A stretch of 46,363 nucleotides of DNA, taken from contig JANWWP010000050.1 in assembly GCA_025055575.1 (NCBI GenBank), positions 1-46,363 of the forward strand, in the 5' to 3' direction. Below are positions 1 through 33,537 of this stretch, one piece after another. This DNA is from Flavobacteriales bacterium (lineage in GTDB: Bacteria > Bacteroidota > Bacteroidia > CAIKAF01). Under the pieces are notes generated by a model. The model was not told the origin of the DNA and did no database searches. It worked only from the letters and a program-made list of their open reading frames with translations. Within the stretch, counting starts at the first letter, position 1; the number at the start of each line of letters is the position of its first letter. Made by a program: the position numbers and the translations under genes.

Positions 1-402
1 CTCGGCTTTACGCTTGGCCTCAGCTTCCGCGGCCAGGCGGGCCTCCTCTTCGGCCCTGCGGCGGGCTTCTTCCTCGGCTTTGCGCTTGGCTTCGGCTTCT
101 GCGGCCAGTCGGGCTTCCTCTTCGGCCTTGCGGCGGGCTTCTTCCTCGGCCTTTCGCTTGGCTTCGGCCTCGGCGGCCAGTCGTGCTTCCTCTTCGGCTT
201 TGCGGCGGGCTTCTTCCTCGGCCTTGCGCTTGGCTTCGGCCTCGGCGGCCAGGCGGGCTTCCTCTTCGGCCTTGCGGCGGGCTTCTTCCTCGGCCTTGCG
301 TTTGGCTTCGGCTTCCGCAGCCAGGCGGGCTTCCTCTTCGGCTTTGCGGCGGGCTTCTTCCTCGGCTTTGCGTTTGGCTTCGGCCTCGGCGGCCAGTCGG
401 GC
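1..402 (-). pseudogene. In-frame continuation of the charged-helix protein beyond a premature stop; runs off the left edge
   Basis: Directly downstream of the TAA at 405-403 on the minus strand, the same frame stays open for 134 codons to the window edge. It keeps encoding the same pattern of EARRKAEE, EARLAAEA and EAKRKAEE octets seen before the stop. At the stop position every other copy has GAA, so one substitution accounts for the interruption. The segment is therefore the rest of the gene at 403-1131, separated by a nonsense change or a sequencing error. Its true end, and any C-terminal domain, lie outside the window. Confidence 0.7.
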
Positions 403-627
403 TTACTCTTCGGCGTTGCGGCGTGCTTCTTCCTCGGCCTTGCGCTTGGCTTCGGCTTCCGCGGCCAGTCGGGCTTCCTCTTCGGCCTTGCGGCGTGCTT
501 CTTCCTCGGCCTTGCGCTTGGCTTCGGCCTCGGCAGCCAGGCGGGCTTCCTCTTCGGCTTTGCGGCGTGCTTCTTCCTCGGCTTTGCGGCGGGCTTCTTC
601 TTCGGCTTTGCGGCGGGCTTCTTCCTC
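1..627 (-). repeat. 72-bp tandem repeat (three 24-bp octets) encoding a charged helix
   Basis: A 72-bp unit recurs in register, with the recognisable segment encoding RLAAEAEA near positions 19, 91, 163, 235, 307, 379, 451 and 523. Each unit encodes 24 residues in three octets (EARRKAEE, EARLAAEA, EAKRKAEE). Three extra EARRKAEE-type octets lie at about 555-627. Copies differ mostly at synonymous positions (for example gcc/gct, gag/gaa), suggesting expansion by duplication with selection on the protein. The array is continuous coding DNA without spacers. Confidence 0.9.
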
Positions 628-1131
628 TGAGTTTTTTACAGAGACCAAACTTTCTCGAAGTTGAGTCAGTTTGGCTTTTTGGTTTTTTAGGGATCGGAAG
701 GTCTCATTTTCAAATATCAGATCATAAAAGCTGTTATCCCATTGAACAACGGACGCGAATTCTTCTTTTTCCCTGAAAACGGGCTTATACAACAACACGT
801 CCATTATGAAAGGCATCAAGCCGTCCTTTGCCGCTTCTGCGGGGACTTTAGTTTTAAATTCAAACCGCTTGGAAACAAAACCGGGAGCCGAGAAAACTAC
901 ATCAAAGCGGTCGTTTAAAGCCAACTGAAAACTGAATTTGCCCTGTGCGTTGGTTTTGCCTGTCGCAATTTTTTTGCCTTCTTTCAATATCACATATTCA
1001 GCTTGTTGGCCACCCAAAGAATCCAACACCACAGTGCCTGAGACCTGGATCATTTTGTCCTGGGCCCTCAGAAGGAAAGAAAAGGCCAGGAAACAACACC
1101 ACAGCATTCCCAGGTTGCGGAGGCTTCGCAT
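403..1131 (-). CDS. Exported protein: Ig-like (carboxypeptidase-regulatory-like) domain plus charged helix, truncated by a premature stop
   Basis: This reads as 242 residues from the ATG at 1131; a longer frame begins only at a GTG at 1182, which would put extra residues before the signal peptide. Residues 1-24 form a signal peptide ending LLRAQ. Residues about 28-115 look like a carboxypeptidase-regulatory-like beta sandwich, with a motif VVFSAPGFVSKRFEF. A linker of about 50 residues follows, then from residue 168 an Arg/Lys/Glu/Ala helix in octets. The paralogue at 20429-22141 has the same order and the related motif VEFTAPGYVTKKVEV. Translation ends at a TAA (405-403) inside the repeats, while the frame continues to position 1. 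Location is probably periplasmic or outer-membrane facing. The function is unknown; a structural spacer or cell-envelope scaffold is only an inference. Confidence 0.75.
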   Translation of the reverse strand: MRSLRNLGMLWCCFLAFSFLLRAQDKMIQVSGTVVLDSLGGQQAEYVILKEGKKIATGKTNAQGKFSFQLALNDRFDVVFSAPGFVSKRFEFKTKVPAEAAKDGLMPFIMDVLLYKPVFREKEEFASVVQWDNSFYDLIFENETFRSLKNQKAKLTQLRESLVSVKNSEEEARRKAEEEARRKAEEEARRKAEEEARLAAEAEAKRKAEEEARRKAEEEARLAAEAEAKRKAEEEARRNAEE

Positions 1132-20428: not shown

Positions 20429-22141
20429 TTACCGGGGAACCACGTTATAGATATCTTCCATCTGCGCTTCGTATTGCTTGAATTCTTCTTCTGTCACTTC
20501 AATGGGCCCGGCGCCATCCCCAAAGTTTACATATCCGTAATATTTCATCCGGGGATTGCTGCGTACGGCCTCAGTGTAGGGCACCAGAGACACCACCTTC
20601 ATATTTTGCCGCGCCCGAAGCATAGCCAGACGCCGTTCTTCTTTTTCTAAAGCCATCAGCCTTTCAGCTTCCAGTTTCTGGCGCATAAATTCTTCTCTTT
20701 CCTTCTTTTCACGCATGCGTTTATCCTGCACGGCCATATAATTCTGCTCTAATTCTCTTTGCGCTTTCAGTGTCGCGGCGGCTATTTCAGCCTTCTTTTG
20801 CTTTTTCATTTTTTGCACCTGTTTAAAGTGCTTGGCTTCGGCCAGTTCATTCTGTTCTTTCCATTTGGCCAGCTCGGCCATTTTTTCAGCTCTGGACAAA
20901 GCCATATCCCGTAGTTGTTTCGCTTCTTCTTCGGCCCGGCGTCGCGCGGCTTCTTCCTCCGCTTTTTGCAAGGCTATTTTGGCCGCCATCAACTCGGCCT
21001 CCATACGTTTTCTGTCTTCTTCACGCCGTTTTTCCTCTTCCTCCCTGCGTTTTTTCAATTCCTCTTGTTCCCGTGCTATCCGCTCGGCTGCCAGGCGTTC
21101 AGCCTCCATGCGCTGGCGAATGCGCTCTTCCTCAGCCTGTTTCCTGGCCTGCTGCTCGGCCTCCAGACGTTTGGCCTTCAGTTGGTCCATGATTTCCTTT
21201 TCTTCCCGGCGACGGGCTTCTTCGGCTTCTTTTTGGGCTTTCAAAGCGGCAAACGTGCTGTCCTGGATAAATTTCTGACGGGCTTCAGCCTGACGGCGGG
21301 CCTCTTCCTCTGCCATTTTCTTCGCCTGTTTTTCGGCAAAGAGGCGGGCTTCCTCCATCCGGCGGCGTTCTTCTTCTTCCAGTTTTCGCTTTTGTTCTTC
21401 CAGGAACCGCAAGCGCGCCTCTTCTTCCGCTTTTTGTTTGGCTTCCAATTCGGCTTTACGGCGGGCTTCTTCTTCCATTTGTTTTTTCTGTTTGGCCAGC
21501 ATAGCCTCCATTTCAGCCTTGCGGCGGGCTTCCTCTTCGGCGGCTTTACGTGCCGCTTCTTCCTCAGCCTTTTTGCGGGCCTCTTCCTCTTTAAGTTGTT
21601 GTTTTTGGGCTTGTTCTAAACGCTTTTGTTCTTCCTGGCGGGCTTTGAGTTCGGCTTTGAAGGCGTCTTCCACGATTTTATCCCGCACAAAATCCATCAC
21701 ACCTTTTTCAAAATAAAACTTTGAAACCGGCTTTTCGTAAGCTTTATCTACCGGGCCGCCGGTGGCTTTGGGCAAGACCACATTGAACTCCAGAGGGGCC
21801 ACGTCCTGGGCTTCAAGCTCCTTCAGGATGGCCGTGTTCACTTCCACTTTCTTGGTCACATAGCCCGGCGCCGTGAATTCCACTGTAAATTCGTTCTGAT
21901 ATTCAAGTTCAATGCTGTACATACCGGCCTGATTGGGAACGTATTCGCCCACTTTTACCCCATTTTTGCGCACGATCACTTTTCCTTGAGCTGCCGTGCC
22001 GCCTTCAGGTTTAATGTACCCTACTATTCCGATGCTGTAGCTTTGGGCTCGGGCAGTAGATAAAAAGCCTCCCCACAGCGGGGATAAGAATGCCAAGCCC
22101 AACAACAGATTTCTTACGTGAAACCTTTTGATAACTAACAA
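20429..22141 (-). CDS. Exported Ig-fold protein with a long charged helix (paralogue of the gene at 403-1131)
   Basis: A 570-residue protein probably started by a TTG at 22141; no ATG precedes the signal peptide, which ends STARAQ. Residues about 35-125 form a carboxypeptidase-regulatory-like domain with FTVEFTAPGYVTKKVEV. Residues 135-160 hold a conserved linker (PVSKFYFEKGVMDFVRDKI). Residues about 161-512 are an uninterrupted Glu/Arg/Lys/Ala stretch with no prolines or glycines, the signature of a single alpha-helix or coiled coil roughly 50 nm long. A C-terminal domain (about 58 residues) holds KYYGYVNFGDGAGPIEVTEE. The gene at 403-1131 shows the same front half. The function is unknown; a periplasmic spacer is an inference. 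Confidence 0.82.
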   Translation of the reverse strand: MLVIKRFHVRNLLLGLAFLSPLWGGFLSTARAQSYSIGIVGYIKPEGGTAAQGKVIVRKNGVKVGEYVPNQAGMYSIELEYQNEFTVEFTAPGYVTKKVEVNTAILKELEAQDVAPLEFNVVLPKATGGPVDKAYEKPVSKFYFEKGVMDFVRDKIVEDAFKAELKARQEEQKRLEQAQKQQLKEEEARKKAEEEAARKAAEEEARRKAEMEAMLAKQKKQMEEEARRKAELEAKQKAEEEARLRFLEEQKRKLEEEERRRMEEARLFAEKQAKKMAEEEARRQAEARQKFIQDSTFAALKAQKEAEEARRREEKEIMDQLKAKRLEAEQQARKQAEEERIRQRMEAERLAAERIAREQEELKKRREEEEKRREEDRKRMEAELMAAKIALQKAEEEAARRRAEEEAKQLRDMALSRAEKMAELAKWKEQNELAEAKHFKQVQKMKKQKKAEIAAATLKAQRELEQNYMAVQDKRMREKKEREEFMRQKLEAERLMALEKEERRLAMLRARQNMKVVSLVPYTEAVRSNPRMKYYGYVNFGDGAGPIEVTEEEFKQYEAQMEDIYNVVPR

Positions 22142-25039: not shown

Positions 25040-25348
25040 TCATGGGTTCAACTGGTGATATGAAAGATACGATGACAGCTCCTTGTGCAAAGCCTGGAGT
25101 AAACCCAGGGCCCTGGCGTCGGTCAGGAAATCTGAGTTGGGCTGGGACAGAAGGCGCATGGCCAACTCTAAAGCACAGAGGGCTAGGGCATCCCCTGGCA
25201 TGGTGATGCTTCCGGAAGCGCGGTATTTTTCAATACCGGCGTTCACCAGACCAGCGGCTTGATGAACTTTGCCGATTTGTTCTTCTGAAACACGCAGCCT
25301 GTACTCACGTCCGGAGATGGTCACCTGAACGGGCTGTGTTTCAGGCAT
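25040..25348 (-). CDS. zapA: Cell division protein ZapA
   Basis: A 102-residue protein with the ZapA fold: N-terminal strands QVTISGREYRLRVSEEQIGKVHQAAGLVNAGIEKY, followed by a helix ALALCALELAMRLL. ZapA tetramers bundle FtsZ filaments at the division site. The 5' end overlaps the upstream coiled-coil gene by 8 bp, and the pair precedes rny. Confidence 0.85.
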   Translation of the reverse strand: MPETQPVQVTISGREYRLRVSEEQIGKVHQAAGLVNAGIEKYRASGSITMPGDALALCALELAMRLLSQPNSDFLTDARALGLLQALHKELSSYLSYHQLNP

Positions 25349-25637
25349 GGACAGGAGTTTGTTCGTTGAGCTTACCTAAACAATATTCAATATCAGCCTT
25401 CATGCCCTCCAGCACTTGCTGGATTTGCTGGGCCAGGGTGCGAATCTCTTCGCTGGACAGGGAACCCATTTCAGCGGGAGTGGATTCTGCGGTTTGTACG
25501 ACCTCACTCAGACGCAGTACCGTATTTTTTAATTCCGTGTTCTCTTTCCAGAGAAATTCGTTTTCTTGTTTTAAGCGGCTGTGCTCCTGCATCAGTTTTT
25601 CCACCTTATCTTTCAGTTCTTGAACCAGTTGTAACAT
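25341..25637 (-). CDS. Small coiled-coil protein upstream of zapA
   Basis: A 98-residue protein from the ATG at 25637, chosen because the -7 element at 25659-25666 leaves almost no leader for the ATG at 25649. The first about 60 residues form a heptad coiled coil (ELKDKVEKLMQEHSRLKQEN, FLWKENTELKNTVLRLSEVV). The rest is a helix ending GMKADIEYCLGKLNEQT. It overlaps zapA by 8 bp. By position and shape it resembles a ZapB-like bridging coiled coil, but sequence identity to ZapB is not evident. The function is inferred only. Confidence 0.65.
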   Translation of the reverse strand: MLQLVQELKDKVEKLMQEHSRLKQENEFLWKENTELKNTVLRLSEVVQTAESTPAEMGSLSSEEIRTLAQQIQQVLEGMKADIEYCLGKLNEQTPVHA

Positions 25638-25658
25638 TGAACCATCCATCGCAGTGGG

Positions 25659-25666
25659 CAAAAATA
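25659..25666 (-). promoter_or_regulatory. -7 promoter element TATTTTTG for the coiled-coil/zapA/rny cluster
   Basis: On the minus strand TATTTTTG matches TAnnTTTG; 21 bases separate it from the ATG at 25637, and only 9 from the ATG at 25649. Confidence 0.5.
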
Positions 25667-31830: not shown

Positions 31831-33537
31831 ATGAAACGTTGTTTTGTTTACACGGGCATTACCTGCGTTTCCATTCTGGGCTTGGTTCTCTCCGGATGCA
31901 CCGGCTACAAGCTCAGTGATATTCGTTACGTCGTGGACCCCAGTCCGCTGCGTTTCCACAACGATTCTATTAGAATCCGGGTATCGGTTACGTATCCGGC
32001 TCGTCTGGCGCCGTCTCAGGCCGATATCGTGGTGACCCCTTACTTGGAATACGAGGGCGGTACATTGGAATTAAAGCCCTTGGCTCTGAGAGGCGCCAAG
32101 TCTCCTTCTAAATTAGGCCATACCCTCAAACCTCAAGGGGGTGAACTGACGTATGAAGACGTGGTGCCCTATGCATCTTATTTAGATCGTTGCCGTTTGA
32201 AGGTAAAGGCCGTTGGTTCCCTCAAAGGAAAAATCAAAAAAGATTGGGCCCTTCAGGAACCCTTGGCCTTTGGCACTGTCACTACGCCTTTGATGGGCCA
32301 GGCCGAACCCGAATTTGTGGAGGCTGCCGACCGTTTGGGCCCTGTTCAAAAGGTGCACAGCACATTGCTGTATTTTCCATTTAACAGCAGCGAAATACGG
32401 CCGTCCGAAAGGGAGAGTCCCGATGTGGAAGGTTTTAAAGGATTTGCGGAACGCTATGCCAGGGAAGGCGCTACATTTAAAAATATGGAAGTGGTGGGCT
32501 ACGCATCGCCGGAAGGTCCGGATGATGTGAATCTGGAGCTTTCCCGCAAAAGGGCCGGCAGCTTGGAGGGACTTGTCCTGCAAGAGCTGAATAAAATCAA
32601 AAATCCAGGCCCGCCTTTAAAACCTAAAACACGCGGACAAGGGCGTGACCTTCAAGGTTTTCGGAAAAAACTTGAAGAGAAAAAGCTGCCCGAAAAACAA
32701 AATTTAAGTAACCTCGTGGAGCAGGGCTTAAACCGTGTTCAAATCCGCGAAAAAGTGCAATCGCTATCGCCTGTCCTCGACAACGAACTGGAAGTAGAAA
32801 TCTTCGCTCCGCTGCGTCGTGCAGAGGTGCTTACCACAGTGGAGGTGCAGCCCCGCAGCGATGAGGAGCTGAAAAAGCTGGCCCGTTTTAACCCCGAGGG
32901 CTTTACTTTGGAGGAAGGTTTGTACACATGCCGGAAATTGATTCACGACCCTTCTGTGTGTGTGCGGGTCATGGAGGCCCTCCAGGTGAAATTTCCAGAA
33001 GATTGGCGCCCCTACAACAACGCCGGCGTGTTTCACGCGCAGCTGGGGGAATTGGAAGCCGCCGAAGAACAATTCAGAAAGGCGGAAAAACTGAGCCCCG
33101 CTGAAAAGGTGGTGAAAACCAATCTCGGCATGATGTGGCTCAAAAAAGGCCAAACGGCTCAGGCTCAGGCTATGCTGTCAGAAGCTGGTACAGCGGAGGC
33201 TGCAGCCGCTTTGGCGCCAGTGTGGCTTCGTAAAGGACGCTATGCTGAAGTAATTCAAATGTTGGGCGACAGCCCTTCCTTTAATGCGGCGCTTGCCCAA
33301 CTGCTGACCGGTCATCCTGACGTGTGTCTTGATATCCTGGATAGGCTAAAGAAAGGGGAGGAGAAACCCATTCAATATCTGCGGGCCATCGCATTGGCCC
33401 ATCAGAAAAATGAGAGCGCATTTTTCCCCGCCCTCAAAAAACTCATTTCAGGCCTGCCCCCTGCCGAAAAGCGCCGTATTCTGACGGATCCCGAATTTTT
33501 ACCATTCTGGAACCATCCGGAGTATCCCAAATCTTAA
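31831..33537 (+). CDS. Lipoprotein with an OmpA-like domain and C-terminal TPR-like repeats
   Basis: A 568-residue lipoprotein with a lipobox at GLVLSGC (Cys23). Residues 24-170 are a beta-rich region I do not recognise. An OmpA-like peptidoglycan-binding domain starts near residue 176 (HSTLLYFPFNSSEIRPSE) and carries NLELSRKRAGSL near residue 234, the N-x-x-L-S-x-x-R-A pattern. About 75 extra residues, including KPKTRGQGRDLQGFRKKLEE, precede the usual ending APLRRAEVLTTVE. Residues about 391-450 are TPR-like (YNNAGVFHAQLGELEAAEEQF, KTNLGMMWLKKGQTAQAQAML, and more). A peptidoglycan-anchored outer-membrane assembly or scaffold role is plausible. It is not a recognised PorE, as the domain order differs. 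Confidence 0.8.
   Translation: MKRCFVYTGITCVSILGLVLSGCTGYKLSDIRYVVDPSPLRFHNDSIRIRVSVTYPARLAPSQADIVVTPYLEYEGGTLELKPLALRGAKSPSKLGHTLKPQGGELTYEDVVPYASYLDRCRLKVKAVGSLKGKIKKDWALQEPLAFGTVTTPLMGQAEPEFVEAADRLGPVQKVHSTLLYFPFNSSEIRPSERESPDVEGFKGFAERYAREGATFKNMEVVGYASPEGPDDVNLELSRKRAGSLEGLVLQELNKIKNPGPPLKPKTRGQGRDLQGFRKKLEEKKLPEKQNLSNLVEQGLNRVQIREKVQSLSPVLDNELEVEIFAPLRRAEVLTTVEVQPRSDEELKKLARFNPEGFTLEEGLYTCRKLIHDPSVCVRVMEALQVKFPEDWRPYNNAGVFHAQLGELEAAEEQFRKAEKLSPAEKVVKTNLGMMWLKKGQTAQAQAMLSEAGTAEAAAALAPVWLRKGRYAEVIQMLGDSPSFNAALAQLLTGHPDVCLDILDRLKKGEEKPIQYLRAIALAHQKNESAFFPALKKLISGLPPAEKRRILTDPEFLPFWNHPEYPKS

Follow-up and report, generated by a model that had tools for sequence, protein, structure and literature searches.

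Two conserved heads and an exchangeable linker in an exported protein family of Bacteroidia: candidate envelope tethers

What does a bacterium gain from exporting a protein that consists largely of one long charged helix, and is the helix the part that is conserved? The question is raised by a gene in a 46,363-nucleotide stretch of a Flavobacteriales genome (contig JANWWP010000050.1, here contig C30; the whole stretch is called the window). An earlier note on this DNA had paired the gene with a second, truncated one and proposed a paralogous family that carries an Ig-like domain and a rigid rod of about 50 nm. The coordinates given there for the two genes are correct, and both genes lie on the minus strand, which the note had left unstated. 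The complete gene runs from 22141 to 20429 and is predicted to encode an exported product of 570 aa. Its probable start is the TTG at 22141, the first of several possible starts; there is no in-frame ATG. The product divides into the following parts.

20429..22141, minus strand: complete window gene, 570 aa, TTG start
22046..22141, minus strand: signal peptide, residues 1-32, ending ARA before Q, without a lipobox Cys (by eye)
21773..22045, minus strand: N-terminal head, a transthyretin/Ig-like CarboxypepD_reg domain, residues 33-123 (Pfam, AF2 model, Foldseek)
21683..21730, minus strand: beta-hairpin, residues 138-153, the counterpart of the wider family's FDYD motif
20606..21679, minus strand: charged helical linker, residues 155-512, with breaks in the model near 235-245 and 403-410
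20432..20605, minus strand: C-terminal head (YG type), residues 513-570, about 58 aa, strand-helix-hairpin-helix

The N-terminus of the window protein resembles a cleavable signal peptide (ARA|Q), as in its homologs, although this was judged by eye and a retained transmembrane helix of the TolA type is the alternative. In all complete homologs the signal peptide ends in AQ or SQ without a cysteine. The Sec-type signal peptides read by eye in the window protein and its copies thus support the claim that the family is exported. Beyond the signal peptide, the window protein shows no transmembrane helix, and neither a lipid anchor nor an OmpA domain nor a T9SS tail was seen in it. Among the family proteins, Pfam gave no OmpA-like domain, with 15 other OmpA-domain matches in the genome, and NCBIfam gave no T9SS sorting tail (TIGR04183 type), with 88 matches (76 of them over the cut-off) elsewhere in the genome. 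Since tails are so frequent in this genome and absent from the family, export to the surface by the T9SS is unlikely, and a T9SS surface protein was rejected as a candidate. The 88 tail matches amount to a large share of the proteins of this 2.4 Mb genome. An SLH domain or an outer-membrane beta-barrel has neither a Pfam match nor a corresponding region in the AlphaFold (AF2) model.

The N-terminal head is modeled as a transthyretin-like beta-sandwich, with an AF2 pLDDT of about 90 within the domain and Foldseek similarity to the NTE of SusC (9hfj, TM by target 0.72) and to the TTL domain of carboxypeptidase D (5aq0). The Ig-like CarboxypepD_reg assignment of the earlier note is thereby supported by fold, although the Pfam scores of the window protein, copy 1, and a third copy on contig C19 (15.5, 23.1, and 28.3 bits, respectively) lie below the gathering cut-offs of PF13715 and PF13620 (32.2 and 32.3). 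The authors who described the SusC NTE, a periplasmic domain, call its function unknown (PMC7782687).

The protein also ends, as claimed, in a distinct domain, the YG-type head with KYYGYVNFGDGAGPIEV at residues 513-570. It is modeled as a strand, a short helix, a hairpin, and a helix (pLDDT 78, pTM 0.60), and is characterized by the motif G[YF][IV]N[FMY]G[DN]GxG...E[FY]. Distant relatives carry a different C-terminal head with a WGG motif. Neither head has a sequence match in Pfam, NCBIfam, or the PDB, in line with the expectation that no characterized family would be hit, and a Foldseek search of the PDB with the YG head returned nothing below E = 0.78. An EF-hand was considered for the GDGxGNIE loop and rejected, as the scores are weak and at chance level and the invariant Glu is not spaced as an EF-hand would require. 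The YG and WGG motifs look alike by eye, but hhalign gives their homology a probability of only 0.4%, and for this reason we do not claim it.

Between the heads lies the charged linker. Its longest run without Pro or Gly measures 373 aa (residues 148-520), slightly more than the roughly 350 residues originally claimed, and would extend over about 56 nm as a straight helix. Pairs of opposite charge are in excess over shuffled sequences at i,i+4 (z 8.7) and at i+3 (z 4.4), and the hydrophobic occupancy of a/d positions is no higher than in shuffles (mean 0.34 vs 0.35), that is, there is no heptad excess. These statistics come from a crude purpose-made test rather than from a published single alpha-helix (SAH) or coiled-coil predictor. 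The AF2 model is mostly helical, with helices at 155-234, 246-402, and 411-512 separated by low-confidence breaks, which may be artefacts of a thin alignment (15 sequences) and of low complexity. Together, these features support the proposed single-helix linker and are as expected for an SAH, the signature of which the linker appears to carry; naturally occurring SAHs have been described (PMC5347031). We infer that the linker is helical in vivo. Long charged helices often coil, and local a/d maxima reach 0.62 within this one, which would suit a coiled-coil that multimerizes into a filament or a periplasmic scaffold. Its mean occupancy, set beside the 0.50 (0.39 in shuffles) of the RNase Y helix encoded in the same window, makes such a multimer unlikely.

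The second gene of the window, copy 1, is interrupted and runs into the end of the contig.

403..1131, minus strand: copy 1, with signal peptide, N-terminal head, and the start of the helix; ATG at 1131, in-frame TAA at 403-405
1..606, minus strand: tandem repeat of copy 1, 72 bp (24 aa), 8.4 units, running off the contig end; likely C-terminus at 48085-48468 (minus) of contig C44

With the helix excluded, the N-terminal regions of copy 1 and the window protein share 27.7% identity over about 133 aa (E = 3e-15), a similarity well beyond chance. Both score highly against the N-head profile (1e-46, precisely 1.1e-46, for the window protein and 1e-41 for copy 1), being themselves rows of that profile. 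The TAA at 403-405 falls inside the 72-bp repeat and may reflect either an error in the assembly or a truncation of recent date. The frame is open on either side of it and continues to position 1, where contig C30 ends. The earlier note had predicted a similar C-terminal domain for copy 1 outside the window, and a search of the same genome found that domain at the end of contig C44 (48085-48468, minus), where repeat DNA that shares 91% identity with the C30 repeat leads into a C-terminus ending in TSYIVMRKYTTGTSKYYGYINFGNGTGNHNLTEAEYNEYYKKYRLVLRD. This piece is likely the C-terminus of copy 1, the join being indirect since the two contigs share no exact overlap. In the sister genome G015, the same C-terminal piece lies at a contig end of its own, and the genes that come after it there and on C44 are homologs. 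A third paralog, on contig C19, is an 849-aa open frame comprising the N-terminal head, TPR repeats, a charged helix, and the same C-terminal domain. With three copies in the source genome the proposal of a paralogous family holds, and both the architecture and the paralogy are solid.

Tandem repeats of family genes coincide with contig ends in several unrelated assemblies (window 1-606, C44, G015 C133, G001, G004, G469, and G490). Short-read genomes therefore split or miss members of the family systematically.

A comparison of the relatives shows that the heads are the constant part and the linker is not. From the end of the N-terminal head to the start of the C-terminal head, the distance is 70 aa of Pro-rich sequence in L136, L137, and L145, 328 aa in the window protein, and about 1,100 aa of charged helix in L139, and in L107 and the C19 paralog the same two heads are joined by TPR linkers. 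The sister-genome ortholog (L087) keeps the 328-aa spacing, and its identity to the window protein is 89% and 88% at the two ends and 82% in the helix. Between the two genes, dN is about 0.11 overall (0.13 in the helix) and dS is saturated; purifying selection thus acts on the gene, including the helix. The exchangeability of the linker between conserved heads is a solid conclusion.

These observations bear directly on the fixed-length rigid rod of the earlier note, thought to span or brace the periplasm. The long Pro/Gly-free run, the charge pairing without heptads, the mostly helical model, and the spacing kept in the sister ortholog all agree with it. However, a rigid rod of some 50 nm can hardly be the defining or conserved feature of a family in which head spacing ranges from 70 to over 1,100 aa and the helix is replaced by Pro-rich or TPR segments, and the window helix itself has two low-confidence breaks in its model. 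The typical Gram-negative periplasm is moreover narrower than 56 nm. A helix of about 1,100 residues would measure about 165 nm if straight and could not cross the periplasm radially, so it must bend, follow the envelope lengthwise, or be helical only in part; a straight radial span is thus impossible for many relatives. A fixed-length ruler was rejected on account of this variation, and we consider the rigid rod improbable. The linker could, on the other hand, have no specific role and consist of slippage-prone, possibly partly disordered repeats that drift neutrally between functional heads, as the tandem repeats, the wide length variation, and the in-frame stop in one copy might suggest. 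The window helix is not a perfect repeat, though, and its identity to the ortholog and its low dN make neutral drift quite improbable.

The two-headed plan extends well beyond the window. The YG head together with the N-terminal head occurs in 14 of the 16 genomes of the window's order, which is represented here by one family. In the class sample, the YG head was found in 29 of 395 genomes from four families, so its restriction to one order, which a first phylum sample had suggested, was discarded. Scanning a large genome collection for the YG form yielded 21 loci, nearly all in metagenome assemblies of uncultured Bacteroidota; the exceptions, filed under Chitinophaga pinensis and Candidatus Competibacteraceae (one each), are metagenome assemblies too. 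A profile of the N-terminal head plus hairpin matches 223 of the 395 genomes of the class, often more than once and with up to 10 paralogs in each. All 19 full-length relatives examined from other families combine a signal peptide, the N-terminal head, a strongly conserved hairpin of the FDYDTDYTKS type, and a variable linker with the small WGG-motif domain at the C-terminus; this domain was found in 167 of 375 genomes of the class. The window protein has no C-terminal domain of the WGG type; among the genomes listed, its family (f1) carries the YG type only and family f80 has both. These counts are lower bounds: metagenome assemblies make up most of the genomes, and their contigs break at long repeats, so that members are hidden. 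Literature searches on single helices in bacterial envelopes and on such CRD proteins retrieved no description of this family; the class-wide exported family opened by the N-terminal head is apparently undescribed.

Gene neighborhoods differ by lineage. The window gene neighbors the genes for RNase Y, a polysaccharide flippase, and a PS decarboxylase; in its lineage the gene follows RNase Y and the flippase, an order common to L087 and L089. This context tells little about function, and no conserved operon partner was found in the window's own family. Among the 28 loci examined, 13-15 have two genes divergent to the family gene, one for an exported TPR protein (c1) and one for a small exported protein (c2), and 11 also have a Cys-rich exported protein (c3); c2 and c3 have no Pfam family match. 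The short YG-type proteins of f80 likewise adjoin the c1 TPR gene. In the f1, f58, f69, and f80 genomes tested, c3 is absent (two positive controls worked), and a search for c2 in f1 genomes, run without a positive control, gave no match.

Several further observations concern the surroundings of these genes. The c1-c2-c3 trio adjoins WGG-type members across many Bacteroidia families (L176-L194), one of its proteins having an invariant set of cysteines. PorE-like proteins, judged from sequence by a TPR start and an OmpA-like end, occur near L088, L089, and L106. One genus group (L098, L101, L102, L104, L105, and L093) has a conserved gene order upstream of the family gene, comprising a TPR protein of about 1000 aa, a probable outer-membrane barrel protein without a Pfam match, and an HSDR_N-domain protein. 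Within the window, two small genes at 25040-25661 (minus), just upstream of RNase Y, appear by eye to encode a ZapA-like and a short coiled-coil protein, and a 568-aa open reading frame (31831-33537) contains, at 32371-32643 (plus), a weak sub-threshold match to the OmpA domain (21 bits, E 6.7e-4).

We propose, at roughly even odds, that the window protein is a Sec-exported, two-headed envelope tether or adaptor with a spacer of variable length. The protein would be exported by Sec, cleaved at ARA|Q, and retained in the periplasm. A periplasmic location is suggested by the export signal; a surface, vesicle, or inner-membrane-associated one is possible too. The N-terminal head with its hairpin would dock on one envelope partner, likely an outer-membrane protein by analogy with the SusC NTE and the carboxypeptidase-like domain of PorE, and the small C-terminal head would bind a second; the identity of both partners is a guess. 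The charged helix would serve as a stiff, soluble spacer rather than a fixed ruler, a preference that rests chiefly on the variation in linker length. As no anchor was seen, tethering would depend wholly on non-covalent binding. This proposal is favored by the joint conservation of both heads despite the exchange of the linker, by the missing T9SS tail, by the exported TPR and small proteins next to distant members, and by the PorE-like proteins near some members; the neighbors of the window gene, which do not indicate an envelope-tether system, count against it.

A survey of force transducers reported no identifiable tol-pal loci in Bacteroidetes and proposed PorE as a tether (PMC12204202, 2025), and further tethers in this phylum are therefore plausible. 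The missing tol-pal loci, together with a helix that is placed between folded ends and matched by TolA models, could point to a TolA- or TonB-like transducer that passes force from an inner-membrane motor to the outer membrane. Yet the TolA matches are confined to the low-complexity helix of copy 1 and fall below the cut-offs (28.7 and 29.5 bits vs 59.45 and 213), with no match for the complete copy. The apparently cleavable signal peptide, in place of a retained N-terminal TM helix, and the lack of adjoining motor genes also render a force transducer very improbable.

Extending the tether proposal, the two-headed linker proteins of the class (an N-terminal head plus a YG or WGG C-terminal head, often beside the exported TPR protein and the two small exported proteins) might form an envelope connection system that does what elsewhere falls to Tol-Pal or OmpA-type tethers, an idea that we regard as rather doubtful. 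Should the tether proposal be right, it would give a name to a large exported family that occurs in over half of the genomes sampled from the class, with up to ten copies per genome, whose C-terminal heads have no Pfam or NCBIfam model and which is easily dismissed as TolA-like low complexity. Given the reported lack of identifiable tol-pal loci in the phylum (PMC12204202), the family and its conserved neighbors would be concrete, testable candidates for envelope integrity. The fact that relatives naturally carry a helix, TPRs, or a Pro-rich linker between one and the same pair of heads would provide a built-in experiment on the purpose of a long periplasmic helix.

Among known systems, SAH domains such as those of myosins and the KER region of CAF-1 resemble the linker in being rich in E, R, and K, with i to i+4 salt bridges and neither Pro/Gly nor heptads, but the family described here is bacterial and exported and includes some much longer members. 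The SusC NTE (PF13715) of Bacteroidota TonB-dependent transporters has the same fold as the N-terminal head, a periplasmic position, and the same phylum, whereas the window protein, which stays below the Pfam cut-off, has a hairpin, a linker, and a small C-terminal domain in place of the TonB-dependent barrel and plug. PorE, a lipoprotein with TPR, PD40, carboxypeptidase-like, and OmpA domains, is likewise periplasmic and has a carboxypeptidase-like domain, with TPRs recurring in some family copies; the family has no lipobox, PD40, or OmpA peptidoglycan-binding domain. Domain II of TolA is also a long helical linker of Ala, Glu, Lys, and Arg between folded periplasmic ends, but TolA differs by its membrane-anchored N-terminus, its domain III, and its tol-pal context. 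Although it has neither a beta-barrel nor an SLH domain and shows single-helix rather than trimeric coiled-coil statistics, the family shares with the SlpA/OmpM connectors of outer membrane and cell wall the folded ends and a long helical stalk, the length of which differs from species to species (PMC9388160).
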